A DNA stretch of 64,000 nucleotides from Brevibacterium sp. ZH18 (lineage in GTDB: Bacteria; Actinomycetota; Actinomycetes; Actinomycetales; Brevibacteriaceae). Below, one piece after another: positions 18,845 through 63,769 of the stretch (position 1 is its first letter; every line of letters begins with the position of its first letter). The notes below the pieces were generated by a model. That model was not told the origin of the DNA and searched no databases. It saw only the letters and a program-made list of their open reading frames with translations. The translations under genes and the position numbers were made by a program. The DNA is taken from assembly GCF_022748595.1 (NCBI RefSeq), contig NZ_JALDSX010000006.1, positions 1-64,000 on the forward strand. The letters run 5' to 3'.

Positions 18845-18875
18845 TCAGTCTCTGATCAATCTCTGAGCAGAGAAA

Positions 18876-18911
18876 GGAGCCCCGGAAGCCAGTCGGCTTC
18901 CGGGGCTCCTT
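18876..18911. terminator. Terminator after ilvC
   Basis: A 15-bp perfect stem (GGAGCCCCGGAAGCC at 18876-18890, complement at 18895-18909) with a 4-nt AGTC loop and a short T pair. It also sits downstream of the converging ABC ATPase gene. Confidence 0.85.
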
Positions 18912-18957
18912 CGTGTAGGTGCGGCCGTGAGGCGGTCTCAGGTGGTGCGCTTGAGCC

Positions 18958-20706
18958 TCATGCGGCGAGTCTGGCGGCGCGGCGTGCTGCCTGGATCTCC
19001 GGGTCGGGCACTGGTGCAGAGTCGATGAGCTCCCGCGTGTAGGCCTGGCTAGGATGCGCGAGCACCTGAGAACTTGGTCCCTGCTCGACGATCGCCCCGT
19101 GCTGCAGAACGACGACGGTCGAGGCGAGCTGCTCGATGACTGCGAGATCGTGGCTGATGAACAGGCACGCGAACTCGTGGACCTCATGGAGCTCGGCCAA
19201 GAGACGGAGAACTCCCCGCTGAACGGAGACGTCCAGGGCTGACGTGGGCTCATCGGCGATGAGCAGCTTCGGGTCCAGCGCAAGAGCTCGGGCGATCGCG
19301 ACGCGCTGACGCTGTCCGCCCGAGAGCTCATGCGGATACCGCTGTGCGAAGTTCTCAGGCAGGCGCACATCGCCGAGGAGCGCCTTTACCCGAGCTTCGA
19401 TGTCGCGACGTCCGCGATCGGTGTGCACGCGCATCGGCTCGGCGATCTGTGCACCGACTGACCGGCGCGGGTTGAGCGATCCGCGCGGGTCCTGGAACAC
19501 GACGCCGATCTCCGAGCGCAGTCTCCGCTGCGCTCGCGTCGGGCGTGTGCTCACGAGACCACCGTCGACGAATGCCTGGCCGGATGTCAGTCGCTGGCCT
19601 CCGGTGAGGACGTTGGCGATCGTCGACTTGCCCGAACCGGATTCGCCGACCAGACCTGTGATCGACCCGGCAGGGATGGCGAGATCGACCGAATCCATCG
19701 CAGTGACCTGCCGTCCCGAGCTGCGATGAACGACGGTGGCGGCCCTGAGTTCTGCGGCCAGAGCGGCGGGCACGGCAGCAGGTGACGATGAAGCTCCCGC
19801 CGAGCCATTCGACTGCTGCTCAGTCGAGCGCGGACGATCGGCCACCTCGGCGGATGAGGCCTCGACGACCGCATTCAGCCGGGGGACCGCGTCGAGGAGC
19901 TCACGCGTGTACTCGGACTTCGGATGATGGAAGATGTCGCGGACCGTGCCGGTCTCGACGATGCGTCCTGACTTCATCACCGCCACCCGGTCCGCGATAT
20001 CGGCGACCACGCCCATGTCATGGGTGATGAGGAGCACCGCCTGTCCCTCATCGGTGGCCTGCTGTCGGAGCAGATCGAGGATCCCCGTCTGAACGGTGAC
20101 GTCGAGAGCCGTCGTCGGCTCGTCGGCGAAGAGCACCTCGGGGGAGTTGATGGTCGCCAGTGCGATCATCGCCCGCTGCAGCTGCCCGCCGGAGAGCTCG
20201 TGCGGGTAGGCCCGCATGATCTGGTCTGGATTGTCCAGGCCCGACTTGAGCAGCTGCCGCCGCACTTGCGAGCCGATCGAACCGTCGGCGGAGGCGCTAT
20301 GGGCACGGACCGCCTCGGCGATCTGGTGCCCGACGCGGAACATGGGATTGAACGCTCCCATCGGCTCCTGGAAGACGACGCCGATGCGTGCACCGCGAAC
20401 CCGGCGCAGTGCCTTCGCCTCGAGACCGACGAGCTCCATGCTCGGATCCGCGTCTGCTCCGGCGAGATCCTCATCTGCTCCGGCGAGATGCGCGGAACCG
20501 GTCAGGCGCACGGACCCGGTCTGACCGGCAGAGCCGGCCAGACCGAGTGCCGCCAGTGCGGTCACCGACTTGCCCGAGCCCGACTCACCGACGAGGGCGA
20601 GGATCGAACCCGGCACGAGTTCGAGGGACACGCCCTCGGTGATGATCCGGGACCCGAAGGAGACCGAGTGATCCGAGAATTCGAGTGCTGCAGCAGTGTT
20701 CGCCAT
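18958..20706 (-). CDS. Fused peptide ABC transporter ATPase (second system)
   Basis: A 582-aa protein with two nucleotide-binding domains: GESGSGKSVT, SGGQLQRAM and LFADEP, then GESGSGKSTI, SGGQRQRVA and LLIADEP. Unlike the ATPase of the first system it lacks the Cys-rich motifs after each domain. Domain 1 carries a low-complexity insert (AHLAGADEDLAGADADPS, around residue 70-85) encoded by a duplicated 21-bp unit (20453-20494), probably a recent expansion. It is the last gene of a four-gene operon: permease, permease, binding protein, ATPase. Confidence 0.9.
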   Translation of the reverse strand: MANTAAALEFSDHSVSFGSRIITEGVSLELVPGSILALVGESGSGKSVTALAALGLAGSAGQTGSVRLTGSAHLAGADEDLAGADADPSMELVGLEAKALRRVRGARIGVVFQEPMGAFNPMFRVGHQIAEAVRAHSASADGSIGSQVRRQLLKSGLDNPDQIMRAYPHELSGGQLQRAMIALATINSPEVLFADEPTTALDVTVQTGILDLLRQQATDEGQAVLLITHDMGVVADIADRVAVMKSGRIVETGTVRDIFHHPKSEYTRELLDAVPRLNAVVEASSAEVADRPRSTEQQSNGSAGASSSPAAVPAALAAELRAATVVHRSSGRQVTAMDSVDLAIPAGSITGLVGESGSGKSTIANVLTGGQRLTSGQAFVDGGLVSTRPTRAQRRLRSEIGVVFQDPRGSLNPRRSVGAQIAEPMRVHTDRGRRDIEARVKALLGDVRLPENFAQRYPHELSGGQRQRVAIARALALDPKLLIADEPTSALDVSVQRGVLRLLAELHEVHEFACLFISHDLAVIEQLASTVVVLQHGAIVEQGPSSQVLAHPSQAYTRELIDSAPVPDPEIQAARRAARLAA

Positions 20707-20709
20707 GGC

Positions 20710-22386
20710 TCAGCCCTTCAGCGAGGCCTTGAAGTAGACCGGGTAGGCGGGGAAGTCACCGATGATGAAATTCTCCACATTCGATCCGTGCAGGAAGGAA
20801 TTCTTGTTATAGGTCAACGGCACCACCGGTGCATCTTCCATAATCCGCTTGTCGGCCTCGGCCCAGATCTTCTGTGCCTCTTCCGGTTTGACGGTTTCGG
20901 TCGCCTTCTTGATGAGCGCGTCGACCTCGTCGTTGGAGTAGCGGGAGATGTTGTAGTTGCCGTTGCCGATCTGCGAGGAGTCGAAGAGCGGCTGGATGTT
21001 GCCGTTGGCCGACGGGAAGTCCGGCTGCCACGAACTCAGAGCCAGATCGTAGTCGCCCTTGGCATCTGTGGCGTCAGCGGAGAACGTGTTCGTGTCCACG
21101 GACTTGATCGTCACCTTGACGTCGATGCGGGCCAGAGCCTCCTGGATCGCCTCGGCCTGCGCGACCGAAGTGGCATCGTTCTTCACCAGCAGCTTGAGCG
21201 TGCCCAGCTTGGCGCCCGACTCCTTGAGCAGGGACTTGGCCTTGTCGACGTCACCACTGGGATCGGCCTTATACAGGTTGAAGTCCTGATGTCCGGGAAT
21301 TCCCGGAGTGATGAGCGTCGAAGCGTAATCGCCGGTGATCTCCCCACCGCCGGCGATGCGGTAGGTGTCCTTATTGACCGCATAGTTGATGGCCTGACGA
21401 ACCTTCGTGTCGTCGAGGCCCTTGTGTTCGTTGTTCATCGCGAGATAGGACAGGGCGCCCGGGCCCGAGGTGACCAGGCGAGACTTCGCGCTCGGGTCGT
21501 TCTGCACCTGAGCCAGCTGAGAGGCCGGGACGAAGCTTGCGGAGAATCCGTTCTTCGCATCGCCGGAGTCGGAGATGAGTGCCTGGGCAGTCACCGAGGC
21601 ATCCTGACCGAGCTTGAACACGACCTCATCGGGGCCTGCGGTGCGTACCGGGTCAGTCTTCTCGTCCCAATACTTGTTGCGTGTCAGCACGGCTTCGGAG
21701 CCGGACTTGTTGGACTTGACCTGGTACGGACCCGACGAAACCGGGTCGAGACCGTACTTGCCCGGATCGTCCTTGTCTTTGGGGACGGGGGAGAAGGCGG
21801 GCATCGAGGCGATCCAGGGGAAGTCGCCGAAGGCTGAGTTGAGATGGAAGACGATGGTCTTGTCATCGGGAGTCTCGACGGACTTCAGCTCGTCGCCCTT
21901 GAACGGACCTTTGTAGTCCGCGCCGCCCTTGAGCAGGGTCTTGTGGTAGCTCAGGCCGCCGGAAAGCTCAGTGGAGAAGGACCGTTCGATGCCGTATTTG
22001 ATGTCCGCCGAGGTGATTGCCGAGCCGTCCTCATACTTGAGGCCGTTCTTGAGAGTGAATGTCCAGGTCTTGCCGTCATCGCTGATCTGGCCGGTGTCGG
22101 TGGCGAGGTCGGGAACGACCTTGCCCTCTTCCCCTGGCTTGATGTCCCACGTCGTCAGGCGACGATGGACGTAGGCCAGCGACGTGATCGCCAGACCCTG
22201 GCTCTTGCCCGGGTCGAAGTCGATGTCGGAGTCCTCGGAGAAGATGTTGAGGGTGCCGCCCTTGTGGGTCTCGCCCAGAGTGTTGGTGCTCTTGTCACCG
22301 TCGTTGTTGAGCTCCGGGTTGGCATTGCAACCGGTGAGGATGAGTCCCAAGGACAGTGTTGCCGCGATCAGTGCTGATCGTCTCAT
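20710..22386 (-). CDS. Peptide ABC transporter substrate-binding lipoprotein (second system)
   Basis: A 558-aa SBP family 5 protein. The signal peptide ends in lipobox LTGC (Cys20). The family signature region around residues 80-110 (YVHRRLTTWDIKPGEEGKV) and the C-terminal NISRYSNDEVDALI are typical. The ribosome site GAAAGG precedes the ATG. Three bases separate its stop from the ATPase start. Substrate unknown; peptides are likely. Confidence 0.93.
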   Translation of the reverse strand: MRRSALIAATLSLGLILTGCNANPELNNDGDKSTNTLGETHKGGTLNIFSEDSDIDFDPGKSQGLAITSLAYVHRRLTTWDIKPGEEGKVVPDLATDTGQISDDGKTWTFTLKNGLKYEDGSAITSADIKYGIERSFSTELSGGLSYHKTLLKGGADYKGPFKGDELKSVETPDDKTIVFHLNSAFGDFPWIASMPAFSPVPKDKDDPGKYGLDPVSSGPYQVKSNKSGSEAVLTRNKYWDEKTDPVRTAGPDEVVFKLGQDASVTAQALISDSGDAKNGFSASFVPASQLAQVQNDPSAKSRLVTSGPGALSYLAMNNEHKGLDDTKVRQAINYAVNKDTYRIAGGGEITGDYASTLITPGIPGHQDFNLYKADPSGDVDKAKSLLKESGAKLGTLKLLVKNDATSVAQAEAIQEALARIDVKVTIKSVDTNTFSADATDAKGDYDLALSSWQPDFPSANGNIQPLFDSSQIGNGNYNISRYSNDEVDALIKKATETVKPEEAQKIWAEADKRIMEDAPVVPLTYNKNSFLHGSNVENFIIGDFPAYPVYFKASLKG

Positions 22387-22528
22387 GGTGTGCCTTTCTC
22401 AAGCGTTCGAACCGGGGGCTGTGATGGTGGCCCGAAGGTTCGCTGTGTTCGTGTCTGTCGTGATGGTCCGATGTTGGTGTGGCTGCGCCGGTCGGCGCGT
22501 GCGCCCGTCGCGCGCGTGGAGGTGTGGG

Positions 22529-23527
22529 TCAGCGGCGGGCCCCGATTCGCGGGTCGAGGACCGAATAGCTGAGGTCTGCCAAGAGGTTCGCGATGATCAC
22601 GATGGCTGCGGCGAAGAGAGTGACGCCGACGATGACCTGGATGTCGAGATTCGACACGGCCTCAAGCAGCAGCGTGCCGACACCGCCGAGGCCGAAGACC
22701 TTCTCCGTGATGACCGCACCGCCGAGCAGCCCGCCGATGTCGATCGCGAACAGCGTCGTCAAAGGCAGCACGAGGTTGCGCAGTCCGTGCTTGCCGATGA
22801 CGATCGGTTCGCTCAATCCTTTGGCTCGGGCTGTGCGGATGTAGTCCTGGCTCATCACCTCGAGCATCTGCCCGCGGGTGAGCCGCGCATAGATCGCTCC
22901 GTTGGCGATGGCCAGGACGATCCAGGGGAGGATCAGATGGAAGGCCCACATCGCAGGGTTTTCGGTCAACGGCACGTATCCGCCGATGGGCAGGACATTG
23001 AGGGTGAACCCGAAGAGCAGGATGCCGAGGAGACCCAGCAGGTAGGTCGGCGCCGAGATTCCCGTGATGGCAGCACCCATGACCACACTGTCGGTGGCCG
23101 TCCCGCGTTTGAGGGCGGCGATGAGACCCGAGACGATTCCGCCGATGGCCCACAGGACTGCCGCTCCAAGAGTCAGCGAGATGGTTACCGGCAGACGGCT
23201 GAGGATGAGGGTCGTGACCGAGTCGCGGAGACGGAACGAGTACCCGAAGCACGGGGCGTCGCAGTGGATGGCTGCAGCACCGCTGCCGAAGTCGCGGCCG
23301 ACGACGATTCCGCCGAGGAAGTCGAAGAGCTGCTTCCACCACGCCTGGTCGACGCCGAGGTACCGTTCGACCTCAGCGAGGCGGTCGGGTGAGCACGGCT
23401 TTCCACATGAGTACTGTGCGGGGTTGCTGGGCATGAGGTAGAAGATCGCGAAGCATGCGGCGGCGACGATGAAGAGCACGATGAGTGCCCCGAGCAGGCG
23501 GTAGGCGATGAACTTGGTGCGATTCAC
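22529..23527 (-). CDS. Peptide ABC transporter permease, OppB/DppB type (second system)
   Basis: A 332-aa permease with six membrane segments and the coupling loop around MSQDYIRTARAKGLSEPIV (residues about 225-243). An external loop (about 40-90) carries paired Cys residues (SCGKPC, DAPCFGY) that could form a disulfide outside the cell. The GTG start overlaps the stop of the upstream permease (GTGA). A 142-nt gap separates it from the binding-protein gene. Confidence 0.92.
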   Translation of the reverse strand: MNRTKFIAYRLLGALIVLFIVAAACFAIFYLMPSNPAQYSCGKPCSPDRLAEVERYLGVDQAWWKQLFDFLGGIVVGRDFGSGAAAIHCDAPCFGYSFRLRDSVTTLILSRLPVTISLTLGAAVLWAIGGIVSGLIAALKRGTATDSVVMGAAITGISAPTYLLGLLGILLFGFTLNVLPIGGYVPLTENPAMWAFHLILPWIVLAIANGAIYARLTRGQMLEVMSQDYIRTARAKGLSEPIVIGKHGLRNLVLPLTTLFAIDIGGLLGGAVITEKVFGLGGVGTLLLEAVSNLDIQVIVGVTLFAAAIVIIANLLADLSYSVLDPRIGARR

Positions 23528-24504
23528 GGCTGTCCTCCTGCGCTCATCGGGTCGGCTGCTGCCGCGCTCTCGCTGCGGGCCTCAGCGGGGTCGAGCGCAT
23601 CGCGGAGACCGTCGCCGAACATATTGAATCCCAGCGTCACGAGGAACAACGCCATGCCGGGGAAGATCAGGTACATCGGGTCGACTTGGACCCAGGAGAT
23701 CGCATCTGAGATCGACCGACCCCACGACGGGGTGGGCGGATTGACACCGACCCCGAGGAAGGACAGGGCCGCCTCGGCGCCGATCTTGCCGGGAATCGAC
23801 ACTGTGGTGAAGACAATGATCGTGGCCAGGATGTTCGGGAAGATCTCGCGGACGATGATGCGCACGCTTCCGGTTCCCTGTGCCGCTGCTGCACGGACGA
23901 ACCCGCGCTCTTTGAGCGAGAGTGTCTCGCTGCGCACGACGCGGGCGATCGAGGGCCACCCGAAGAAGCCGATGACGAGGATCAGGAGGAGTGTGCGGGG
24001 GACGCTCGCCGGAACAGTCGCAGACAGGGCGATTGCGAAGATGAGGAACGGGAAGCCGAAGATCACATCGGTCAGGCGGGACAGCAGACGATCTGCGAAG
24101 CCTCCGTAGAACCCGGCGACAAGGCCCACAATCACGCCGACGACGATCGACACGACAGTGGCGGCAAGACCGATCAGCAGGGACACCTGGGCGCCGTACG
24201 AGACGATCGCAAACAGGTCGCGACCAGTTCGCGGCTCGACACCGAACCAGTGCTGGGCGCTGATTCCCCCGAGAGGCCCGGCCGGTGCGGTGTCGGGCCC
24301 AAGCAGATCCGGGTTGTAGGCGAACGGACTGTTGCCGGTGAGTGCAGAGAAGACCGGAGCCAGAAGTGCGAGAAGGATGAAGACGACGACCAGGACGAGC
24401 CCGGTCATGGCTGCGCGCGAGCGCCGGAGCCGAGTCCAGACGCTGTCTCTGCGAGTGCGTTCTGCTGGAGCTCGTTCGGCAGGTCCTTGTGAGACTGCTG
24501 GCAT
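23524..24504 (-). CDS. Peptide ABC transporter permease, OppC/DppC type (second system)
   Basis: A 326-aa permease: basic N-terminus (about 1-35), first helix (about 38-58), then five helices with the coupling loop LKERGFVRAAAAQGTGSVRII. An ATG at 24510 touches the AAGG ribosome site directly; the ATG at 24504 has a proper 6-nt spacing (AAGGATGGCG-ATG) and is preferred. It is the first gene of the operon. Confidence 0.92.
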   Translation of the reverse strand: MPAVSQGPAERAPAERTRRDSVWTRLRRSRAAMTGLVLVVVFILLALLAPVFSALTGNSPFAYNPDLLGPDTAPAGPLGGISAQHWFGVEPRTGRDLFAIVSYGAQVSLLIGLAATVVSIVVGVIVGLVAGFYGGFADRLLSRLTDVIFGFPFLIFAIALSATVPASVPRTLLLILVIGFFGWPSIARVVRSETLSLKERGFVRAAAAQGTGSVRIIVREIFPNILATIIVFTTVSIPGKIGAEAALSFLGVGVNPPTPSWGRSISDAISWVQVDPMYLIFPGMALFLVTLGFNMFGDGLRDALDPAEARSESAAAADPMSAGGQP

Positions 24505-24816
24505 CGCCATCCTTCGATTCTGTTCAACTGATCCGGCGCAGTGTGGTTGCAGTCAGGGTCGCTGAACTGCTCAACAATTATTGCTCCTGAACTCTTCCTG
24601 AGCAAAGTTGAAAATTTCTTTGGCAGCGAGGCTCGGTTGAGAAGACGGCGATCATTCTTTCGAATGAGAGCAGAATTACAGGTCGAGATCGAGAATGTGC
24701 TCAACCAAGGACGCCGGGATGCCGATCGGCGGTTGACGAGCCTCGCTCCTGTGGAATTCGTGGAACTTCCCTCTTTCCCCTCGTGACCGGGTGCAATGTG
24801 CGTGAGGTGAATTACT
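24505..24816. other. Divergent intergenic region with dyad symmetry
   Basis: No gene is visible. The region separates the minus-strand transporter operon from the plus-strand acetyltransferase. It is A/T-richer than average and contains an inverted repeat TTGCTC-N13-GAGCAA (24580s to 24605) overlapping the predicted operon promoter, a possible operator. Confidence 0.45.
24577..24605 (-). promoter_or_regulatory. Promoter of the second peptide-transport operon
   Basis: On the minus strand: TTGCTC (24605-24600), a 17-bp spacer and AATAAT (24582-24577). This would start transcription near 24570, leaving a leader of roughly 65 nt before the permease. Confidence 0.5.
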
Positions 24817-40146: not shown

Positions 40147-41033
<887 letters not shown>

Positions 41034-52439: not shown

Positions 52440-53135
52440 CTAATTCACAGGGGTTTTTCGCAGGCTTTGGGTTATAGGGGTTATAGGCCAAAATGTGTGT
52501 ATAGGTAGGGCATATCCCATCGAGCACTCCTGCCTCTTTCGCCGTGATTCGCCACCCCACGCCTTCTGAAGCCCGTTGCCCTCCTCGATGCTGAATGACG
52601 ACGAATACATCAGTGACGTTGTTTCCCGACGACCAGTCTCTGGCCCCTCGATGACGCGGTCGGGTTTCTTCTCCCACGCAGCGGCTGTGACGAATGGCCA
52701 GCGATCCTTGGTCGCCTGGGTCTGCCGGTAGAGCGGCCAGTCGACTCCCCGGCAGGCATGATCGATGGGCAGAGCCCTGTGGTGGCGGAGGAAGTCCTTG
52801 ATTATCTTGTTCGGGTCTCCTTCTAGCGCATTCGCCGTCCACGAGATGTCGTAACGGTCCAGGCCGAGTGTCAGCTAGGCAAGGAGCTAACCGTCACGGA
52901 TGAGCCCGGCGTGGAGTTTATGGTCCCGACGGGTACGCAGACGTGTACCAGCAGTGTTGATCTGGTCTGACGTATGGATCGCCCCCGGTTTGCTATCCAA
53001 CTTCCGGAAATTCACCGCCCGCCACGTGTCGAGGCGGCGTTCCCTTTCGCGGCTTTCGAGCTGAGCGCGTTCGGTCAGGATCGCGGCGCCCAGCGCAACT
53101 AGCACGATGAAGGCCGAAGTGACCGCAATGAAGTC
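52440..53135 (-). pseudogene. Decayed reading frame(s) of phage/mobile origin, broken by TAG codons
   Basis: One minus-strand frame reads from 53135 to 52440 through TAG codons at 52889-52887 and 52877-52875, with another TAG just upstream (53138-53136). The first part has a membrane helix (FIAVTSAFIVLVALGAAIL) then a charged coil (ESRERERRLDTWRAVNF). The last 144 codons (LDRYDISWTANALEGDPNK..., RVIEGPETG) lack a good start. I do not recognise either part. Protein-like composition over about 230 codons suggests real genes now broken, either one or two. Confidence 0.5.
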
Positions 53136-53189
53136 CTAGGTTTCCACGAACTCATCCAAGCAAGAACTCGGTAGCCATAAGGAGAACGC

Positions 53190-53459
53190 ATGAGTTGGGA
53201 CGACAAAGCAGCAGCGAAAGCCTACGAACTCGGCTCAAGTGAGAAACAAAGCAGATGGTTCTAGGAAAGCGCAACACAGCAACGATCAACCCTGGAAACG
53301 CCGGAATCAGTGGAACGAGCAGCTGAGGTGATTTGGGATCGCAACCACGGGCCCGCAGAGAAGCCCGTCACGTGGGAAATGCCGCCCGAAGAGATCCGTG
53401 AACTGTGGCGCGACGATGCACGCGCCGTGATTGCCGCACTTAACCGCAAAAAGAGGTGA
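53190..53459 (+). pseudogene. Small phage-like gene interrupted by an in-frame TAG
   Basis: A good ribosome site (AAGGAGAAC) and ATG start a frame MSWDDKAAAKAYELGSSEKQ that stops at TAG (53262-53264, codon 25). It then continues in the same frame for 64 more sense codons (ETPESVERAAEVIWDRNHG, EIRELWRDDARAVIAAL) to TGA. The second half has the Trp/Arg-rich look of small phage proteins. The TGA overlaps the GTG of the next gene, so the full 90-codon unit was once a working gene. Confidence 0.6.
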
Positions 53460-53689
53460 CTAGGAACGACGACATCACCCGCATCTACGGGCCAGGCGCG
53501 AACCGCAACTGGTGGGGCGTCGCGCGCTGGCGTTGGCTGCTCAGTAGCGGCCAATACGTGCGGTCAGGAGAACAGTGCAGCGCACGTGCCGTGATGCCGC
53601 TGGGGCTTCGTGTCGTCGGGGAGGCTGGGCCGGGAGTAGTCGACTTCAACCGCAAGCGCCCGGGGAATAGACTGCGGGAGAAGGGCTGA
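53456..53689 (+). CDS. Small hypothetical protein, phage-like
   Basis: 77 aa, GTG start overlapping the previous stop (GTGA), as in packed phage gene clusters. It has an aromatic, basic core (NRNWWGVARWRWLLSSGQY). No family recognised. Confidence 0.5.
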   Translation: MTRNDDITRIYGPGANRNWWGVARWRWLLSSGQYVRSGEQCSARAVMPLGLRVVGEAGPGVVDFNRKRPGNRLREKG

Positions 53690-53903
53690 TCAGGCTCGAA
53701 GCCCGGCAGCGCATCATCATTTCTGTTACACAACTGCGATAGTTACCACAATTTGAGTGCAAGTAGCCGCCACTCTTCGTCGCGTCCTAGCGGATCGAGC
53801 AGTCAACCCAGAAAGATTGCGCTTTTGCAACATCTGACATTGCCGGAAAGATCGGTTGCAGAGACGAAAGACTATCGATAGCGTGACTGGCGTCATATCC
53901 CCT
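53690..53903. other. Intergenic region before the secreted-protein gene
   Basis: No gene seen. Clearly more A/T-rich than the chromosome around it. It presumably carries the promoter of the secreted-protein gene; I could not fix a convincing -35/-10 pair. Confidence 0.35.
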
Positions 53904-53940
53904 AAAGAAGGTGACAGGTCAAAAAGAAGGTGACAGGTCA
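53904..53940 (+). repeat. Duplicated 18-bp ribosome-binding segment
   Basis: AAAGAAGGTGACAGGTCA occurs at 53904-53921 and 53923-53940. Each copy carries a Shine-Dalgarno (GAAGGTGA). The second is correctly placed for the ATG at 53941. Confidence 0.9.
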
Positions 53941-54492
53941 ATGAGGATCCTTAAAGCAACGAACGTTGGTGTCGCTGCCGCACTAGCACTCTCTCTCACC
54001 CTCGGCGCGGGCGGTGCGGCCTCAGCAACGCCAACAGACTCGGGCGCAAACAACTCCGTGAGCATTGATACTAAACCGACGAGTCATCAAGAGTTCTACG
54101 ACGAACTCAAGGCATCAGACCTCCCCTCGAAGGACGTCAAAATCGACGGCCAAGCCGCGACTGAGTTCGACCTCGGTGAAGGCATTTCGATTACAGTCCC
54201 GAAGCCACAGTCCGGGCTATCGCCTCAACTGAGTGGCAAGATGAACAGCAAGGGCGAGCCGATAATTTACTTCAATCAGTCGGATCAGAAGAAGATCAAG
54301 AAGGTCGGTAAAGCCGCTTTCTCAGCACTCGGCGTCTTCCTGAAAGGGAAGCTCCTCACGAAATTCCTTGGTACGACCGCGCTTAGCTCTATCGCGTCGT
54401 TCCTCGAGGACGATGGAATTTGCAAAGGTGGAAAGACACTTAGAGTCACAGGTACCGCCGACGGAGCGCTGAAGGAGATCAAATGCGTGTAA
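53941..54492 (+). CDS. Secreted cationic protein, bacteriocin-like candidate
   Basis: 183 aa. A Sec signal peptide (residues 1-29, cleavage after AAS-A) precedes a mature protein of about 154 aa. Its first half is acidic/neutral. The second half holds a Lys-rich amphipathic stretch (KKIKKVGKAAFSALGVFLKG, about residues 119-138), then LLTKFLGTTALSSIASFL and two Cys near the C-terminus. The next gene overlaps it and encodes a two-helix membrane protein, the usual layout of a secreted antimicrobial with immunity. I do not recognise the family. An upstream GTG at 53911 lies in the repeat and is not used. Confidence 0.7.
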   Translation: MRILKATNVGVAAALALSLTLGAGGAASATPTDSGANNSVSIDTKPTSHQEFYDELKASDLPSKDVKIDGQAATEFDLGEGISITVPKPQSGLSPQLSGKMNSKGEPIIYFNQSDQKKIKKVGKAAFSALGVFLKGKLLTKFLGTTALSSIASFLEDDGICKGGKTLRVTGTADGALKEIKCV

Positions 54493-54737
54493 GTGACGAA
54501 CTGACCGCGGATCCGACTGTGTCAGAAATCAAGGCACGGCGAGTCAAATGGTTCCTCATAAACTCCGGAATCGTGGCCCTCGCAGCTGCGGTGCTATGGG
54601 CGCTTGGCGGGGCTGGGACACAATTCGTGTTGCCTCTCCCGTTGCTCCTACTGATCGTCGGAGTCTTGGTGTTCGCTGTCTGGGAAACCGTCGCTTACTA
54701 CCTGGATAAGCGCAAACATCTAGGCAACACTTCATAG
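54483..54737 (+). CDS. Two-helix membrane protein, immunity-like
   Basis: 84 aa. A charged N-terminus (DELTADPTVSEIKARRVKW) is followed by two hydrophobic helices (FLINSGIVALAAAVLWALG and FVLPLPLLLLIVGVLVFAVW) and a basic tail. The ATG overlaps the end of the secreted-protein gene by 10 bases, so the two are translated together. Small membrane proteins coupled this way often protect the producer from its own bacteriocin. The role is inferred from context only. Confidence 0.65.
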   Translation: MRVSDELTADPTVSEIKARRVKWFLINSGIVALAAAVLWALGGAGTQFVLPLPLLLLIVGVLVFAVWETVAYYLDKRKHLGNTS

Positions 54738-54883
54738 GACGGCTGGGGCGAACGCATAATTCAGCTAGCCCTCGCAGTAGGGGGCCGTGCAGTGCCCGAT
54801 CGTAGAAGCATGGGGATTCCGATTCAACAGATCGAGATCCCTTCTTCTATGCGGCCTCAGAGTCACCATGCATTGCAGTTCTT

Positions 54884-55135
54884 CTACCGCCCCTGCTGTC
54901 GCTCAAACGCGAACTGTTCCGCACGTACCTGACTGACCCGCTCTACAACATCCGGGCTACACCTGTAAGCGGCATCCGTGTCGACCAACCCCTCCAGTAC
55001 GACGGCGTACTTCTCTGGTGGAAGGTCGATGCGTCGGCACAACGCGTCACGGGCTGCAGAGGTGTGCGCAGTCTTCTCCAGGTCGAGGATCATCCGATCA
55101 TGCTCGGAGGGTTCGTTCACGGTGCCAGGGACCAT
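54884..55135 (-). CDS. DUF3263-like protein
   Basis: 83 aa. The pattern SEHDRMILDLEKTAHTSAAR, then DLPPEKYAVVLEGLVDTDAA and VVERVSQVRAEQ resembles DUF3263, a helical domain found in actinobacteria and their phages. It is on the opposite strand to the secreted-protein genes. The start is unsure: ATG at 55135 or GTG at 55120. Confidence 0.55.
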   Translation of the reverse strand: MVPGTVNEPSEHDRMILDLEKTAHTSAARDALCRRIDLPPEKYAVVLEGLVDTDAAYRCSPDVVERVSQVRAEQFAFERQQGR

Positions 55136-55265
55136 ACGGGCCAGTGTGGCGTGGGGGACTGAGTTTCATGCTTTCGTGCGATGTGGAGCTGACTCGTGAC
55201 TCAGTAGTCTCAAAGCCTCTCCTCACGATGAGCGATATTTTGATATGAGAATTAAGGGCTTGACG

Positions 55266-55604
55266 ATGAAACTACTGAGCTCCAAGGCCAGGGCGCTGTG
55301 CGCAGTTCCTCTTGCCTGCGCCATCGCGCTCACTGGAGTGGGTCCCGCGTCCGCGATTGATGATCAATCAGTGCAATCGGCGCCAGTTTCCCCGACAGAA
55401 CTAGCCGAGGAGCGACCTGATGATGCGGTCGTCTGCACCGAGGGCCAGGCTTTAGTCAAAGTTCTTGATTCCGAGAACTTAAAGATCGAGTCCACCGTAC
55501 CGCAAGCCGCGGGTCGCGACATTGATTGCAACCGCGACGCACCCGCCAAGACTCCGTATTGCTTCCGGGTGGGAATTCCTAGAGTCAAGGCGGTGCTGAG
55601 CTAG
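55266..55604 (+). CDS. Small secreted protein with three mature Cys
   Basis: 112-113 aa. The signal peptide (MKLLSSKARALCAVPLACAI, cleavage near GPASA, about residue 30) precedes an acidic, Pro-containing stretch and a C-terminal part with three Cys (VVCTEG, DIDCNR, PYCFR). The ATG at 55266 has AAGGG 8 nt upstream. No family recognised. It sits in the same A/T-rich island as the other secreted protein. Confidence 0.62.
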   Translation: MKLLSSKARALCAVPLACAIALTGVGPASAIDDQSVQSAPVSPTELAEERPDDAVVCTEGQALVKVLDSENLKIESTVPQAAGRDIDCNRDAPAKTPYCFRVGIPRVKAVLS

Positions 55605-55905
55605 ACAGATCTGTCAACGATTGCGCCATACCGGTAGGCAGATTTGTTGAGCTGCGTATACTGCATAGGCACTCGATGCTGCTACAACAGCACTCACCTA
55701 TTGCTTGACGGATGAGCAAGTCCTCAAGAACTCCAAATTGAGACCTTCTGATGCTTGGGTGTGCGGACCCTCTCCTGCTGATCAGCGGCTTCCTATGTTG
55801 CAGTGTGTTCCACGTCTGTGCGCTGGTTCATACCAGTGCCCTCAATCTTTGCCTCATCCGAGGGGAGCAAGGCTGGTTTATATCCCGCAACGCTGGCTGT
55901 CCGCG
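55605..55905. other. Intergenic region at the right edge of the island
   Basis: No convincing gene, tRNA or clear terminator. Composition shifts back from A/T-rich to the chromosomal norm. I looked for a second copy of the tRNA 3' ends (possible attachment site) and found none. Confidence 0.35.
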
Positions 55906-57049: not shown

Positions 57050-57976
57050 TCAGTGCAGGCCGATGGTCCATTCGACGCTGAGCTCGTCGTGCGGATCGAT
57101 GACGTCAAAGTCCGCGCCAGTGGCGAAGGCATTCGGCGCACATGTCATCGGTTCGATGGCGATGGCGCGACGTCGACGCTCCCCGGGGAGTTCGTCTCCG
57201 GTGCAGACTTGCCATGTTCGGAAGTGCTCGTCCATGCCAACCTGGATGGTTCGTCCGTCCGCCCCCTTCAGCCGTGCCCGAGACCAGCCGTCCGCGCCGC
57301 GCTGTGGAGATCCGAACGCATCGTCGAGGACAGTTGACGCGACCGTCCGCAGTGAACGGAAGTCCTTGCACACGATGCACGGAGTTTCGTCGTGCTCATG
57401 GTCAGTGGGAATGAGGGAGCCGGTGTCGAAGGTCTTCTCTTCGACAGGGATCAGCCGCTCGTCGGTCTCGAACCAGGTTTCGGCAGGCAGGCTCAGCTGT
57501 GACTGGTCGATCTCTGCAGAGCCCGGATGGAACCAGGGGTGGAATCCGAAACCGAATGGAACGGAGTGTGACCCGGGGTTCTGCGCCCGTGCGCGGACTA
57601 TGATTCCGTCGTCGCTGAGACTGTACTTCGCGTCGAGAATCAGTTCGAAGGGATACCCCTCAGAACTGGGGATGGTCGTGTTCAGTGAAACGGAGGAATC
57701 GTCGCTCGCGGTGACTTGCCAGTCAGTCTGTGCCACCAGGCCGTGCAGAGCAGTGTTCCGAGCAGGTTCGGTGATGGGCAGCTGATGTCGGTGCCCGTTG
57801 AACTCGAAGCGGCCATCGGCGATTCGGTTGGGCCACGGTGCCAACACGGCTCCGTCGAAGGCGTTCATGGAGACGACTACGGGGCGATCACCGACCGTGT
57901 ATTCCATGAGTGCCGCCCCGGTGGGGGAGACGACCGCTGTGTCCTCGCCGAGGGTGAGTCGGATGTTGGCGGCCAT
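57050..57976 (-). CDS. galM: Aldose 1-epimerase (mutarotase) family protein
   Basis: A 308-aa protein interconverting alpha and beta hexose anomers before phosphorylation. It has the family substrate/active-site stretches APWPNRIADGRFEFNG, ALHGLVAQTDW and PFGFGFHPWFHPG with the catalytic His. A C-terminal Glu region (IAIEPMTCAPNAF) completes the site. It is divergent from galT-galK and shares their promoter region with the proposed operator, supporting a galactose role. Ribosome site AGGAG. Confidence 0.9.
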   Translation of the reverse strand: MAANIRLTLGEDTAVVSPTGAALMEYTVGDRPVVVSMNAFDGAVLAPWPNRIADGRFEFNGHRHQLPITEPARNTALHGLVAQTDWQVTASDDSSVSLNTTIPSSEGYPFELILDAKYSLSDDGIIVRARAQNPGSHSVPFGFGFHPWFHPGSAEIDQSQLSLPAETWFETDERLIPVEEKTFDTGSLIPTDHEHDETPCIVCKDFRSLRTVASTVLDDAFGSPQRGADGWSRARLKGADGRTIQVGMDEHFRTWQVCTGDELPGERRRRAIAIEPMTCAPNAFATGADFDVIDPHDELSVEWTIGLH

Positions 57977-58066
57977 GCTGCTCCTGCGGGATCGGTGTGC
58001 GGTGAATCCGCCTCAGCAGAATTCTACGCGCAACCTGTGACCAAAACCCATCTGATGTTAGCATTA

Positions 58067-58082
58067 TGATCGAAAATGATCG
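58067..58082. promoter_or_regulatory. Proposed DeoR operator in the galM/galT promoter region
   Basis: TGATCGAAAATGATCG: two TGATCG hexamers in direct repeat, ten bases apart. It overlaps a TATGAT -10 candidate (58065-58070) for galT. The matching site TGATCGTTTATGATCG lies in front of the symporter gene at 62810. Confidence 0.62.
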
Positions 58083-58096
58083 TTTTTGGAGGTTTG

Positions 58097-58156
58097 ATGA
58101 GTCGGTGTCGTTGCCCTCGATTCCACAGCCGCGCCGCCGCGATTGCGGACGCGTGA
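58097..58156 (+). CDS. Upstream ORF coupled to galT
   Basis: A 19-codon frame, MSRCRCPRFHSRAAAIADA, with an excellent ribosome site (TGGAGG) 4-9 nt upstream. Its TGA (58154-58156) overlaps the galT ATG in a TGATG junction. galT has no ribosome site of its own, so translation of this small frame probably delivers ribosomes to it. The peptide need not have a function. Confidence 0.55.
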   Translation: MSRCRCPRFHSRAAAIADA

Positions 58157-59292
58157 TGAGCACACGGATCCAGCGGAGAGTGCTCGCCGACGGCAGGGAG
58201 ATCCTGTTCTTCCAGGACGCGGATTCGCCCGTGCAGACGATCGCCGAGGATCCTCGACCCGCTGAGCAGCGTCCTGTCGGTGGGCAGCTGCGCTTCGACC
58301 TGCTCACCGGCGAGTGGGTGGCTGTGGCCACGCACCGTCAGTCGCGGACGCATCTGCCCGCTGCCGCCGAATGCCCGCTGTGCCCCTCGACGCCGGAGCG
58401 ACCCACCGAGGTCCCCGCGGAGGACTACGAGGTCGTCGTCTTCGAGAATCGATTCCCATCGCTGGGACCGAAGCAGGGTTCGGTGCCCGCCGATCCAGGG
58501 CCTGCCTTCGCCGAGGCGGCCGCTGAGTCCGCACTGACGGCGCCGGCACATGGGCGTTGCGAAGTCGTCGTCTTCTCCTCCGAACACAATGGCTCCTTCG
58601 CTGATCTCGACACGCGTCGGGCACGTACGGTCATCGATGCCTGGGCGAACAGAACTGCGGAGTTGTCTGAACTTCCTGGCATCGAACAGGTCTTCGTGTT
58701 CGAGAATCGCGGTGAGGAGATCGGCGTGACGATGAATCACCCCCATGGCCAGATCTATGCTTACCCCTATGTCACTCCGCACACCATGGTCACCTCGGCT
58801 CGTGCGGTGGCGCACCGACGTGAGACGGGCAGGCCATTGATGGGCGACATCCTCTCCTTCGAACGCACCTCAGGCGAGCGGATGGTCCTCGAATCAGCAC
58901 ACTTCTCCGCCTTCGTGCCCTATGCCGCGCGGTGGCCGATCGAAGTCCACATCGTCCCACATCGGCAGGTGCTCGGCATCGATGAGCTTGACGAGGCCGA
59001 ACGCGACGACCTGGCCCGCATCTACCCGGAAGTGCTGCGACGAATCGACGGGCTCTACCCGAGTCCCACTCCCTACATCGCCGCCTGGCACCAGGCACCG
59101 GTGAACTGTGCGGACCGATCGGCCGAATGGATGCACCTGGAGATCACCAGTCCCAGGCGCGCCGAAGACAAACTGAAGTTCCTCGCCGGATCAGAAGCGG
59201 CCATGGGGGCCTTCGTCGGTGACGTCTCCGCCGAGGAGACGGCTGCGCGTCTGCGCGCAGTGTCGACAGTGCACGAAGACGGTGCCCGATGA
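58156..59292 (+). CDS. galT: Galactose-1-phosphate uridylyltransferase
   Basis: A 378-aa enzyme exchanging Gal-1-P with UDP-glucose (Leloir pathway). The catalytic motif NHPHGQIYAYPYV (about 193-205) has the nucleophilic His. Zinc-binding Cys pairs are seen in AECPLCPS, with HIT-like HIVPHRQ and WHQAPVN further on. The ATG at 58156 is preferred because the frame then begins MSTRIQRRVLADGRE as expected; an ATG at 58066 lies inside the operator with no ribosome site. It overlaps galK by four bases. Confidence 0.94.
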   Translation: MSTRIQRRVLADGREILFFQDADSPVQTIAEDPRPAEQRPVGGQLRFDLLTGEWVAVATHRQSRTHLPAAAECPLCPSTPERPTEVPAEDYEVVVFENRFPSLGPKQGSVPADPGPAFAEAAAESALTAPAHGRCEVVVFSSEHNGSFADLDTRRARTVIDAWANRTAELSELPGIEQVFVFENRGEEIGVTMNHPHGQIYAYPYVTPHTMVTSARAVAHRRETGRPLMGDILSFERTSGERMVLESAHFSAFVPYAARWPIEVHIVPHRQVLGIDELDEAERDDLARIYPEVLRRIDGLYPSPTPYIAAWHQAPVNCADRSAEWMHLEITSPRRAEDKLKFLAGSEAAMGAFVGDVSAEETAARLRAVSTVHEDGAR

Positions 59293-60578
59293 GCGCGGCT
59301 CCCGCGCCGACGGGTCAGAGCCTGAACCGTGAGTTCGAGGCGCTCTTCGGATACGTGCCGTTGGGTTGCTTCCGAGCTCCCGGACGCGTCAATCTCATCG
59401 GTGAACACACCGACTACAACAACGGGTTGGTCCTGCCTATCGCCATCGACAGGGCCGTCCACGTGGCCATCGGCCGCCGTCCCCAGGGATGCTCGAACGG
59501 ACACGAGAACCATTTGGACGGACACGAGAACCACACGGGTGGACACGAGAGCTCCACGGGCGGAACCGCGGCACCACCTCGGTGCGAGGAGAGCATCAGG
59601 ATCGTCTCCGATCACCGGGATGCCTCGGGTGAGCGCCTTGCCGGCCAGTTCACGGCTGAGGAACTTGTGCCCGGCACCCTCCGAGGATGGCTCAGTCATC
59701 CTGCCGGTGTCGTCGACGAGATCGCCAGGACAACAGGCACGGTACTCGGCGGCATCGACCTCTATGTCGAATCGACTGTGCCCGTGGGTGCCGGACTCTC
59801 GTCCTCCCACGCGCTCGAAGTCGCGGTTCTCATCGCCCTTGACGAGGTTTTCGGCCTCGGCCTCGACGACCGTGAGAAGGTGCTGCTCACCCAGCGCGCC
59901 GAGAACGACTTCGTCGGTGCTCCCACAGGGATCGTCGATCAGGCCGCCTCAATCATGACCGAGGCCGGACACGCGCTCTTCCTCGACTGCCGAGATCTCT
60001 CGACTCGACAGATCCCTTTCGATCTCGAGGCTGAGGCTCTTAAGCTGCTCGTCATCGACACCCGAGTGTCCCACTCTCACAGTGAGAGCGGGTATGGAGA
60101 CCGGCGGCGCAGCTGTGAGGAGGCCGCCGGAGTGCTGGGTGCTGAGAGTCTGCGCGAGCTTGATGACGCCGTCGACCTCGGAGGCCTCACGCTGGTGCAG
60201 AGGAAGCGGGTGCGGCACGTCTTCAGCGAGAATGCCCGGGTCCGGGCCACCGTCGAGCTCCTGGAGCGACACGACGAGAAGAGCAACCGAATCCGCGAGA
60301 TCGGAGGGCTCCTGCTTGCCTCCCACGATTCCCTCGCCGGTGACTACGAGGTCTCGTGCGAGGAACTCGACGTTGCCGTCGCAGCGGCGATGTCGGCAGG
60401 AGCGATCGGGGCTCGGATGATCGGCGGCGGTTTCGGAGGATCGGCTATCGCGCTCGTCGACGCTGCGAATCTCGACAAGGTCGGCGACTCGGTCCGCGCC
60501 GCATTCGCCGAACACGGATACCGCGCGCCCGATATCTTCGATGTCAGTGCCGGGGACGGTGCCGGCAGAATCGAGTGA
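59289..60578 (+). CDS. galK: Galactokinase with a repeat insert
   Basis: A 429-aa GHMP kinase phosphorylating galactose at C1. The signature GRVNLIGEHTDYNNGLVLP (about 28-46), the ATP loop VPVGAGLSSSHALEVA and GGGFGGSAIALVD are intact. Longer than typical galactokinases (about 390) because of an insert near residues 68-97, rich in Gly/His/Glu/Asn and made of three 7-residue repeats (GHENHLD, GHENHTG, GHESSTG). ATGA overlap with galT. Confidence 0.94.
   Translation: MSAAPAPTGQSLNREFEALFGYVPLGCFRAPGRVNLIGEHTDYNNGLVLPIAIDRAVHVAIGRRPQGCSNGHENHLDGHENHTGGHESSTGGTAAPPRCEESIRIVSDHRDASGERLAGQFTAEELVPGTLRGWLSHPAGVVDEIARTTGTVLGGIDLYVESTVPVGAGLSSSHALEVAVLIALDEVFGLGLDDREKVLLTQRAENDFVGAPTGIVDQAASIMTEAGHALFLDCRDLSTRQIPFDLEAEALKLLVIDTRVSHSHSESGYGDRRRSCEEAAGVLGAESLRELDDAVDLGGLTLVQRKRVRHVFSENARVRATVELLERHDEKSNRIREIGGLLLASHDSLAGDYEVSCEELDVAVAAAMSAGAIGARMIGGGFGGSAIALVDAANLDKVGDSVRAAFAEHGYRAPDIFDVSAGDGAGRIE
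59499..59561 (+). repeat. Three 21-bp tandem copies inside galK
   Basis: Units starting GGACACGAGA at 59499, 59520 and 59541 encode GHENHLD, GHENHTG and GHESSTG. They fall in a loop before the first kinase core strand. Confidence 0.9.
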
Positions 60579-60638
60579 CGGCGGTACGCACCGCCGGGAC
60601 GGTGCCGGCAGAATAGAGTGACGGTGGAACGCGCCGCC
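60553..60638 (+). repeat. 43-bp tandem duplication across the galK stop codon
   Basis: Copy 1 is 60553-60595 and copy 2 is 60596-60638, with five differences. Copy 1 contains the galK stop TGA. Each copy holds a small GGCGG...CCGCC hairpin, so the pair may also act as a weak terminator. Confidence 0.88.
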
Positions 60639-60672
60639 GTGTCTGACACAGGAGCCCTGGAAAGTAGATGCC

Positions 60673-60995: not shown

Positions 60996-62701
60996 TTACC
61001 CGAAGGTCACGTTGAGGATGATGACGAGGATCAGGGCGAGACCGGCGATGGGCACCGGGCGCTTCCAGATCGGTGGCTTCGTTTCGTTCGGGTCTTCGAA
61101 GTCGGCCTTAGGCGTCTCCGAATAGACAAGTCCTCGTAGTTCGTGGTCGGGTTTCGGTGCGGTCCTGAAGGTGACGATCACCGAGAGAATGATGTCGACG
61201 ATGAAGGCCGTGCTGGCGGCGAGGAACGCCGCGCCCTGCCCGGGCAGATCGAAGACCCCGATCTCGCTGAGGACGAAGACTGCGACGGCCGAAAGGGTGC
61301 CGCCAGCCAAGCCGGCCCAGCCCGCAGTCGGGCTCATGCGCTTCCAGAACATGCCGAGGATGAACGTGGCGAACAGCGGTGCATTGAAGAAGCCGAACAG
61401 CGTCTGCAGGTAGTCCGTGAGGTTGGAGAAGTTGCCGGCGATGAGGGCGGTGAAGATCGCAACTACACAGGCGCCGATAGTCGCGTAGCGTCCGACCTTG
61501 AGGTAGTAGCTGTCCTCGCGGTCCTTGACCACGTACTGCTGCCACAGGTCATAGCTGAAGACCGTGTTGAAGGCGGAGATGTTGGCGGCCATTCCGGCCA
61601 TGAACGCGGCGAACAGGCCGGCGATTGCGATGCCGAGGAGTCCGTTGGGCAGTACCTCACGCATGAGCAGCAGGAGTGCATCGTTGTAGGTCACGCCCGT
61701 CTGCGCCTGGGCGGCAGCTTCGCCCGCGGAGTTCGAGATTTGTTTGAACTGCGTCATCTGAGTCACAAGGACCGCAGAGATCATGCCGGGGATGATCACG
61801 ATGAATGGGATGAGCATTTTCGGGAAGGCGCCGAGGATCGGAGTCAGGCGTGCAGCGTTGATGCTCTTGGACGCCATGGCCCGTTGGACCTCGACGAAGT
61901 TCGTCGTCCAATAGCCGAAGGAGAGCACGAAGCCGAGTCCGAAGACGATTCCGACCACTGAGAGGACAGGGTTGGAGAACCCGGAGAGCTGTTCGCCTGG
62001 CCAGCTGCTCAGCTGCTCAGCTGCTCGGCGCCGAGCATTCCGTCGTTGCTCACTTTCTCCACCAGCCCGTCCCAGCCGCCTACGCGGTTGAGGCCGATGA
62101 TCGTCAGCGGAAGCAGGGCTGCGACGATGACGAAGAACTGAAGCACCTCGTTGTAGATCGCGGCAGTGAGCCCGCCGAGCGTGATGTAGGACAGGACGAT
62201 AGCCGCAGCAGCGACCAGGGCGACCCAGAGCGGCCAGCCGAGGAGGCGATTGACGATCGTACCGAGGAGGAAGAGGTTGACGCCGGCGATGAGGATCTGC
62301 GCCACGGCGAATGACAGCGCATTGACGAGGTGGGCACCAGTGCCGAAGCGCCGTCGCATGAACTCCGGAACCGACCGGACCTTCGAGCCGTAGTAGAAGG
62401 GCATCATGACGACGCCGAGGAAGAGCATTGCCGGAACGGCGCCGATCCAGAAATAGTGCATCGTCGGCATACCGTATTGGGCGCCAGTGGCCGACATGCC
62501 CATGATCTCCACGGCACCGAGGTTCGCCGAGACGAAGGCCAGGGCCGTCACCCAGGCCGGAAGGCTGCGGCCGGAGAGGAGGAACTCGATGCTCGAGGAG
62601 ATGCCGCGCTTGGCGAACCAGCCGATTCCGAGGACGAAAATGAAGTAGATCGCGATGAGCAGATAGTCGATCCACTGCGCGTCCAGACGGATGTCTTCCA
62701 C
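60996..62701 (-). pseudogene. SSS-family sodium:solute (galactose?) symporter, frameshifted by an 8-bp repeat
   Basis: The N-terminal 230 codons (MEDIRLDAQWIDYLLIAIYF, with GRSLPAWVTALAFVSANLGA) run to a stop at 62009. The remaining eleven-helix-type sequence (FSNPVLSVVGIVFGLGFVLS... to the end) continues in another frame to 60996. The break is at three tandem GAGCAGCT units. Deleting one unit joins the two frames without loss (AEQLSSWPGEQLSGF) and gives 565 aa, a normal length for SSS transporters such as vSGLT. Its place between galK and the DeoR gene suggests galactose or glucose as substrate. As read, no full-length protein is made. Confidence 0.85.
62003..62026. repeat. Three tandem copies of an 8-bp unit causing the frameshift
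   Basis: AGCTGCTC three times on the plus strand (GAGCAGCT on the coding strand). Eight is not a multiple of three, so each gain or loss changes frame: two copies in frame, three copies out of frame. Confidence 0.95.
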
Positions 62702-62809: not shown

Positions 62810-62825
62810 TGATCGTTTATGATCG
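62810..62825. promoter_or_regulatory. Proposed DeoR operator in front of the symporter gene
   Basis: TGATCGTTTATGATCG, matching the galT/galM site at 13 of 16 positions with both TGATCG hexamers identical. It lies 109 bases upstream of the symporter ATG. Confidence 0.6.
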
Positions 62826-62946
62826 ATCCTCGAGGGATCTCTGTGATCGTGCGGGCACAGGGCGCGACACGCCGACGGCACGTGGATTTGTGTGACACTC
62901 GATCGTCATTGGATCGTAAGCAGAATTCGTTCAGGGCCGAGCGGAG

Positions 62947-62994
62947 GACCGTGCGGAGGGCCGAACGTAGGGCCGTGCGGAGGGCCGAACGTAG
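62947..62994. repeat. Two 24-bp tandem copies after the DeoR gene
   Basis: GACCGTGCGGAGGGCCGAAC-type units at 62947-62970 and 62971-62994 differ by one base. Partial copies flank them (from about 62935 and up to 63003). Confidence 0.9.
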
Positions 62995-63004
62995 GGCCCG
63001 ACGT

Positions 63005-63769
63005 TCAGGCTGAGATGACCTCGACGTCGACCCCGGCCGTGCGCAGTGCCGTCAGCTCGGACTCGTCGCTGGCCGAATCGGTGATGAGGTGATGGATCTC
63101 GTCGGTGGGCACCGTGAGCACGGAGGAGCGCAGTCCGACCTTCGTGTGGTCGACGAGCGCCATGACCCGCTCAGCGCCGGCGGCCATCGCTCGGTCTGTG
63201 TCGGCCACAGGGAAAGCGGGAGTGGAGAGGCCGAAGTCCGCAGCCAGTCCATTGCCTGAGAGGAAGACGGTGTCCGCTCTCAGTCCGAGGAGCTGGGAGA
63301 CGGTGCTGCCGCCGACGAACGCGCGGATCGAATGCCGCAGGATCCCTCCGACGACGATGACTTCGATGTCGGGGGAGGAGACCATCGCCTCGGCGACGAG
63401 GAGGGAGTTGGTGACGACCCTCAGCCCCGATCGCCCCGCGAGCTCCTTGGCCAGAAGCTCCGTCGTGGTGCCCGGGCCGAGGGCGACGACATCGCCGTTG
63501 CGCACGTGCTTGGCGGCCGCGCGCGCAATCGCTGATTTCTCCGGCAGCGCCTGTTCGAGCTTCTCGGCATAGCTTGACTCGCGGGCGCTCGAATATGCCA
63601 CGGCACCGCCGTGGGTGCGGGTCAGCCGCCCCTCGTCGGCAAGCTGGTCGAGGTCGCGGCGAATCGTGACTGCGGACGTGTCCAGCAGCTCTGAGAGCGC
63701 GGAGATGGAGACTGCGCCGTCGCGTTCGATCGTCTCGACGATCACATTGCGTCTCTGTGCAGCGATCAT
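63005..63769 (-). CDS. DeoR/GlpR-family transcriptional repressor
   Basis: A 254-aa regulator. The N-terminal winged helix (RRNVIVETIERDGAVSISAL, then TSAVTIRRDLDQLADEGRL, about 6-47) is the DeoR DNA-binding domain. The C-terminal sugar-phosphate-sensing domain has the conserved GPGTTTELLAKEL and VDHTKVGL motifs. It most likely represses the neighbouring galactose genes until a sugar phosphate binds. The ATG lies 6 nt after a TAGGAT -10 box. Confidence 0.9.
   Translation of the reverse strand: MIAAQRRNVIVETIERDGAVSISALSELLDTSAVTIRRDLDQLADEGRLTRTHGGAVAYSSARESSYAEKLEQALPEKSAIARAAAKHVRNGDVVALGPGTTTELLAKELAGRSGLRVVTNSLLVAEAMVSSPDIEVIVVGGILRHSIRAFVGGSTVSQLLGLRADTVFLSGNGLAADFGLSTPAFPVADTDRAMAAGAERVMALVDHTKVGLRSSVLTVPTDEIHHLITDSASDESELTALRTAGVDVEVISA

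Follow-up and report, generated by a model that had tools for sequence, protein, structure and literature searches.

A tandem 8-bp duplication breaks the reading frame of a likely galactose symporter gene in Brevibacterium sp. ZH18

We found that a gene for an SSS symporter of Brevibacterium sp. ZH18 (positions 60996-62701, minus strand) is split by the duplication of an 8-bp unit, which now stands three times in tandem inside the gene. The window, that is, the whole stretch of 64,000 nucleotides analysed here, makes up the first part of a 125,866-bp contig belonging to a draft genome of 126 contigs with a completeness of 99.98. A sequence-only reading of this DNA had already proposed that the duplication splits a sugar symporter, and our comparison with related genomes confirms it. 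The reading that we favour, with a probability of about 70%, is that the gene is a recent loss-of-function allele, or young pseudogene, of a galactose symporter, which arose through a slippage duplication and is carried here and probably by one more genotype. The features of the locus are collected in Table 1.

Table 1. Features of the symporter gene and its neighbourhood in the window
Feature	Positions	Strand	Remarks
Symporter, 5' part	62012..62701	-	230 codons, end within the repeat; PF00474 match; 93-98% amino acid identity to 29 orthologues
Premature TGA stop	62009..62011	-	Inside the repeat, directly after residue 230
Tandem repeat	62002..62026	-	Period 8, 3.1 perfect copies; 8 bp less in 29/29 full-length orthologues
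Symporter, 3' part	60996..62003	-	Shifted frame open for 335 codons plus stop; two changes at near-invariant positions, L361F and M426T
Small predicted membrane protein, 104 aa	60673..60987	-	Follows the symporter at a distance of 8 bp; DUF2207_C matched weakly, below cut-off; neighbour in 7/7 named Brevibacterium loci
DeoR-family regulator	63005..63769	-	Upstream of the symporter; neighbour in 6/7 named Brevibacterium loci
galK (galactokinase)	59289..60578	+	Open, 429 aa
galT (galactose-1-phosphate uridylyltransferase)	58066..59292	+	Open, 408 aa
Aldose 1-epimerase (galM-like)	57050..57976	-	Profile match

The three units were recovered at the place and on the strand given by the sequence-only reading, and the two partial frames that it described around the extra unit are also real, with a stop inside the repeat and the remainder open in another frame as far as position 60996. 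It had further claimed that removing 8 bp yields a full 565-aa frame, a state that we found in the orthologues themselves. The orthologue search covered 57 genomes of the genus, own genome included, of which 54 gave some match. Apart from the gene under study, we identified 29 full-length orthologues and a partial one (G014); the other matches listed were distant family members. All 29 full-length orthologues are shorter by exactly 8 bp at the site and have an open frame of 565 aa, relative to which the frame of the ZH18 gene is broken, as in a pseudogene. The closest named loci, seven records from B. sandarakinum, B. aurantiacum and other Brevibacterium with 93-98% identity to the N-terminal part, agree on the 8 bp less and seem to lie in the same genomes as the 29. 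Three records from other genera (L010-L012) gave no DNA alignment across the repeat site. Moreover, the clade adjoining the ZH18 gene in the gene tree (support 84) has ten members, all with 8 bp less, and six of them carry a perfect double unit. Both symporter parts match PF00474 above the cut-off in a profile search, which places the gene in the SSS family by descent; each part alone scores below the curated cut-off of TIGR00813. The complete reading frame of a working symporter is absent, since the frame is broken after residue 230.

The shorter stretch codes for the peptide EQLSSW in 26 of the 29 orthologues, for EQLSTW in one and for EQLNSW in two. At the DNA level, 12 orthologues have a perfect 17-bp double unit and 17 an imperfect one. 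The repeat thus seems to be incidental to the coding of a conserved peptide of the EQLSSW type, because its two-unit form encodes that peptide and is so often imperfect. In the 3.82-Mb genome of ZH18, the 16-bp double unit has its sole site in the symporter tract, as two overlapping matches. The tract is also the one perfect repeat of the window with at least three units and a period of at least 7; four syntenic relatives (292 kb together) have 2, 0, 0 and 0 such repeats, none of period 8. Across 327 kb of the own genome, it is the only octamer present three times, next to one 7-mer (L157:8271-8294) and one 9-mer (L130:9347-9376, counted from the trimmed start) in three units each.

The surroundings of the gene point to galactose as the likely substrate, because the symporter (partial in G014) and galT co-occur in the same 31 of 57 genomes, other gal genes are neighbours, and, among solved structures, SGLT1, vSGLT and SGLT2 are the closest in sequence. 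In 30 of these 31 genomes galK is present as well. The gene order is whole in four of the seven named loci and holds up to galT within the stretch in two, and the stretch of the seventh (L009) contains just the symporter and the small membrane gene. Like the vSGLT and SGLT1 sodium-sugar symporters (PDB 2xq2, 3dh4, 7sl8), the window gene belongs to this family, in which they are its nearest solved relatives; unlike them, it is truncated, and its substrate is deduced from context. A comparison of 23 Brevibacterium genomes reports the four Leloir enzymes in 12 genomes, which fall into two phylogenetic groups, and counts 7.3 SSS genes in the average genome (PMC5719810). The own genome has five other SSF loci, so that galactose might enter by another route. 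Two further repeats lie at galK: a 21-bp imperfect repeat of 3.2 copies (59498-59564) in a length-variable linker, which is longest here among 28 aligned sequences, and a 43-bp unit present twice with 90% matches (60553-60639) across the end of the gene and its stop codon.

The favoured course of events can be outlined as follows. A two-unit 8-bp stretch occurs naturally in the galactose symporter gene of the lineage, and replication slippage would have added the third unit. The frame shift would then end translation after residue 230 and leave no working symporter, so that poor entry of galactose would be expected even with open galT, galK and epimerase genes. The allele would have persisted since and, it seems, begins to gather substitutions that selection normally removes. 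In agreement with the sequence-only reading, the lesion looks recent, both symporter parts being open. The gene resembles young pseudogenes formed by short tandem duplication in its single frame-breaking duplication, its open full-length orthologues and its hints of relaxed constraint. It differs from the usual young pseudogene in that there is only one break and that the duplication could in principle slip back, which makes a reversal by slippage possible; the restored gene may no longer be fully functional.

The sequence-only reading had also stated that the gene has no other defect. This is correct as far as the open frames of both parts go; the downstream part, however, carries two substitutions at near-invariant positions. 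In a tree of 30 Brevibacterium symporter sequences, we counted the private changes of the ZH18 gene at columns where the other 29 agree. The other branches lead one to expect 1.45 such changes in the downstream half, which has 6 (Poisson P 0.004), and the upstream half has none against 0.58 expected (both halves, P 0.017). We then used a wider alignment of 103 sequences, made of the 30 Brevibacterium rows and 73 wider homologues, in which 265 columns reach a conservation of 95% or more. The ZH18 sequence deviates at 2 of these 265 columns, L361F and M426T, against 0.07 expected (P 0.0025), with residues found in none of the other aligned sequences. By comparison, 28 of the 29 orthologues have no deviation at these columns and one (L112) deviates at its last residue. 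With a 90% threshold (305 columns), the ZH18 sequence has four deviations, against a single one in each of four orthologues. The remaining four private changes fall at variable or shared positions: V460A occurs in 8, V463A in 1 and T478I in 2 of the 73 wider homologues, and P538 is variable. The galK gene of ZH18 lacks private changes (413 columns, 28 sequences, the copies of G048 and of G043, whose galK is whole, being left out), but it is a weak control, as 12 of the 27 others have none either.

Altogether, these changes hint at relaxed constraint and an early decay of the symporter gene. The events are few, the halves were split after the fact, and the excess appears in one half only, whereas a dead gene should decay in both. 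If the excess is read as neutral decay, a crude figure of about 3% of the terminal branch since the break is obtained. The unusual substitutions may also predate the break.

Among the alternatives to a young pseudogene, we examined whether the extra unit is an assembly or sequencing error, so that the true genome would have two units. The draft state of the assembly, with its 126 contigs, speaks for such an error. On the other hand, the 25-bp tract fits inside usual sequencing reads. In addition, we scanned the window for frameshifts against the four syntenic relatives, using query frames of at least 120 aa and requiring 60% identity and 70 bits for each piece; places were shown only when backed by two genomes or by more than 75% identity. 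In the parts of the window that have a counterpart in the relatives' stretches, to which the scan applies, the symporter break is the only place shown, and it is backed by all four relatives. The same scan also picked up a place in G021 with the support of all four others and, across the relatives, several with the support of one or two. A protein record of 230 aa (P0001) ends at the same residue as the N-terminal part in the window. Its only difference is L145H (residues 1-5 compared by eye), at a position where all 73 wider homologues have L. The record lies on two contigs, the longest of 3027 bp, and thus not on the 125,866-bp contig of the window. It is known as a protein only, and mutation of the next Trp codon to a stop could possibly give the same end. 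No full-length protein nearly identical to the C-terminal part was found among the best 120 matches listed (best 92%), which carries little weight as these records are clustered at 90% identity. Finally, the unusual substitutions would be unexpected in a working gene. We therefore regard an error, which the sequence-only reading had kept as an alternative, as unlikely.

Even less likely, in our view, is that the tract is a phase-variable contingency locus, which would gain or lose a unit often, so that populations mix ON and OFF cells for galactose uptake. This was the proposal of the sequence-only reading, and several features speak for it: the octamer is a perfect tandem repeat in a coding region, its length is not a multiple of three, and both parts are open. 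The repeat number also sets the reading frame here, as three units break it and the 29 orthologues with 8 bp less are open. Together with the position of the tandem repeat in a coding region, this is what the tract shares with the contingency loci with simple sequence repeats (SSR) of H. influenzae, as described in a survey whose deliberately permissive SSR threshold is reached by three octamer units (PMC2651432). Unlike those loci, the window tract has three units only, is not conserved, and is known from one assembly. The tract is neither long nor kept in orthologues: all 29 of the full-length ones show the shorter, in-frame version, and only 12 of them have a perfect double unit. For these reasons we conclude that it is not kept as a switch. 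Moreover, the repeat unit encodes conserved residues, and the two near-invariant substitutions lie in the half that would be silent. The ON/OFF proposal is thus not upheld by the short tract, its imperfect counterparts and the unusual substitutions gathered.

The sequence-only reading had called such a switch unusual in an actinobacterium, which goes too far. In Mycobacterium tuberculosis, phase variation by tandem repeats and homopolymers is reported, with copy-number variation of promoter tandem repeats at 10^-2 to 10^-3 per chromosome (PMC12817950). The glpK homopolymer frameshifts and promoter tandem-repeat variants of that account share with our case the actinobacterial host, the carbon-source genes and the change in repeat length. 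They differ in being homopolymers or promoter repeats with reported variants (PMC12817950), whereas the Brevibacterium repeat is a coding octamer from one assembly. A frameshift survey bases its phase-variation class on characteristic repeats together with some cluster genes earlier linked to phase variation (PMC3711429). As for our own searches, none of the literature found had Brevibacterium phase variation, under either term, in title or abstract; a search on 8-bp tandem duplication returned nothing on the subject, and one on Brevibacterium with frameshift, galactose or cheese returned only an Arthrobacter paper. It is equally doubtful that a non-pathogenic actinobacterium would hedge against the presence or absence of galactose with a mixture of two- and three-unit cells, P0001 being a second sampling of the OFF state. 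The case also cautions that not every coding repeat is a switch.

It is very improbable that the split gene still works, through re-initiation after the stop or through separately made halves that assemble into a transporter: the break lies 12 residues past the end of the vSGLT alignment, probably in a loop, and the downstream frame has a CTG overlapping the stop as well as later GTG codons at 61958 and 61928, but the first ATG of that frame after the stop comes only at 61877, none of the 29 full-length orthologues has such an arrangement, and the unusual substitutions lie in the downstream half. Programmed -1 frameshifting was set aside, as positions 61990-62140 contain no slippery heptamer. 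A scan of viral contigs for the N-terminal part of the symporter found no relative.

Returning to the young pseudogene, we observed two other, independently damaged gal loci among the 31 gal-bearing Brevibacterium genomes. In G014 (L129:4336-4623, G014:C35), the symporter is truncated at about residue 96, and the small membrane gene and galK are missing from the stretch; a search of the G014 genome did not find galK. Its galT keeps its residues to about 400 of 408, and the frame runs on toward the symporter remnant. In the single-contig genome G048 (L187, G048:C1:2508542-2509773), galK lies in two frames, split near residue 210, which could possibly be a sequencing error. These loci do not come from a systematic count, and seven galT matches contain stop codons, possibly in an extension before the real start. 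Together with the ZH18 gene, the two loci suggest that galactose use has become dispensable more than once in this cheese-associated genus, and this matters for the choice of cheese-ripening strains. The symporter gene of ZH18 offers a clean example of a possible first step in the loss of a sugar-uptake gene, with one short duplication, open pathway genes and perhaps the first unusual substitutions.

Other repeats and segments of the window are also of note. The region from the DeoR gene to the symporter start contains an array of a 12/24-bp unit (62933-62998; 24-bp unit, 2.8 copies, 92% matches). Alignments of the DNA with the four relatives break off at about 62818-62828, and those with three of them start again at 63007-63017. 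Perfect tandem duplications of at least 10 bp number eight in the 64-kb window versus 5, 1, 1 and 1 in the 70-80 kb stretches of the four relatives, and perhaps the lineage has a tendency to short tandem duplication. Two segments, 18847-24800 and 52463-55905, are without alignments longer than 250 bp in the relatives' stretches, except for one short match of 72%. Lastly, an array of the hexamer CGACCG, with 12.8 copies and 94% matches, occupies positions 40865-40941.
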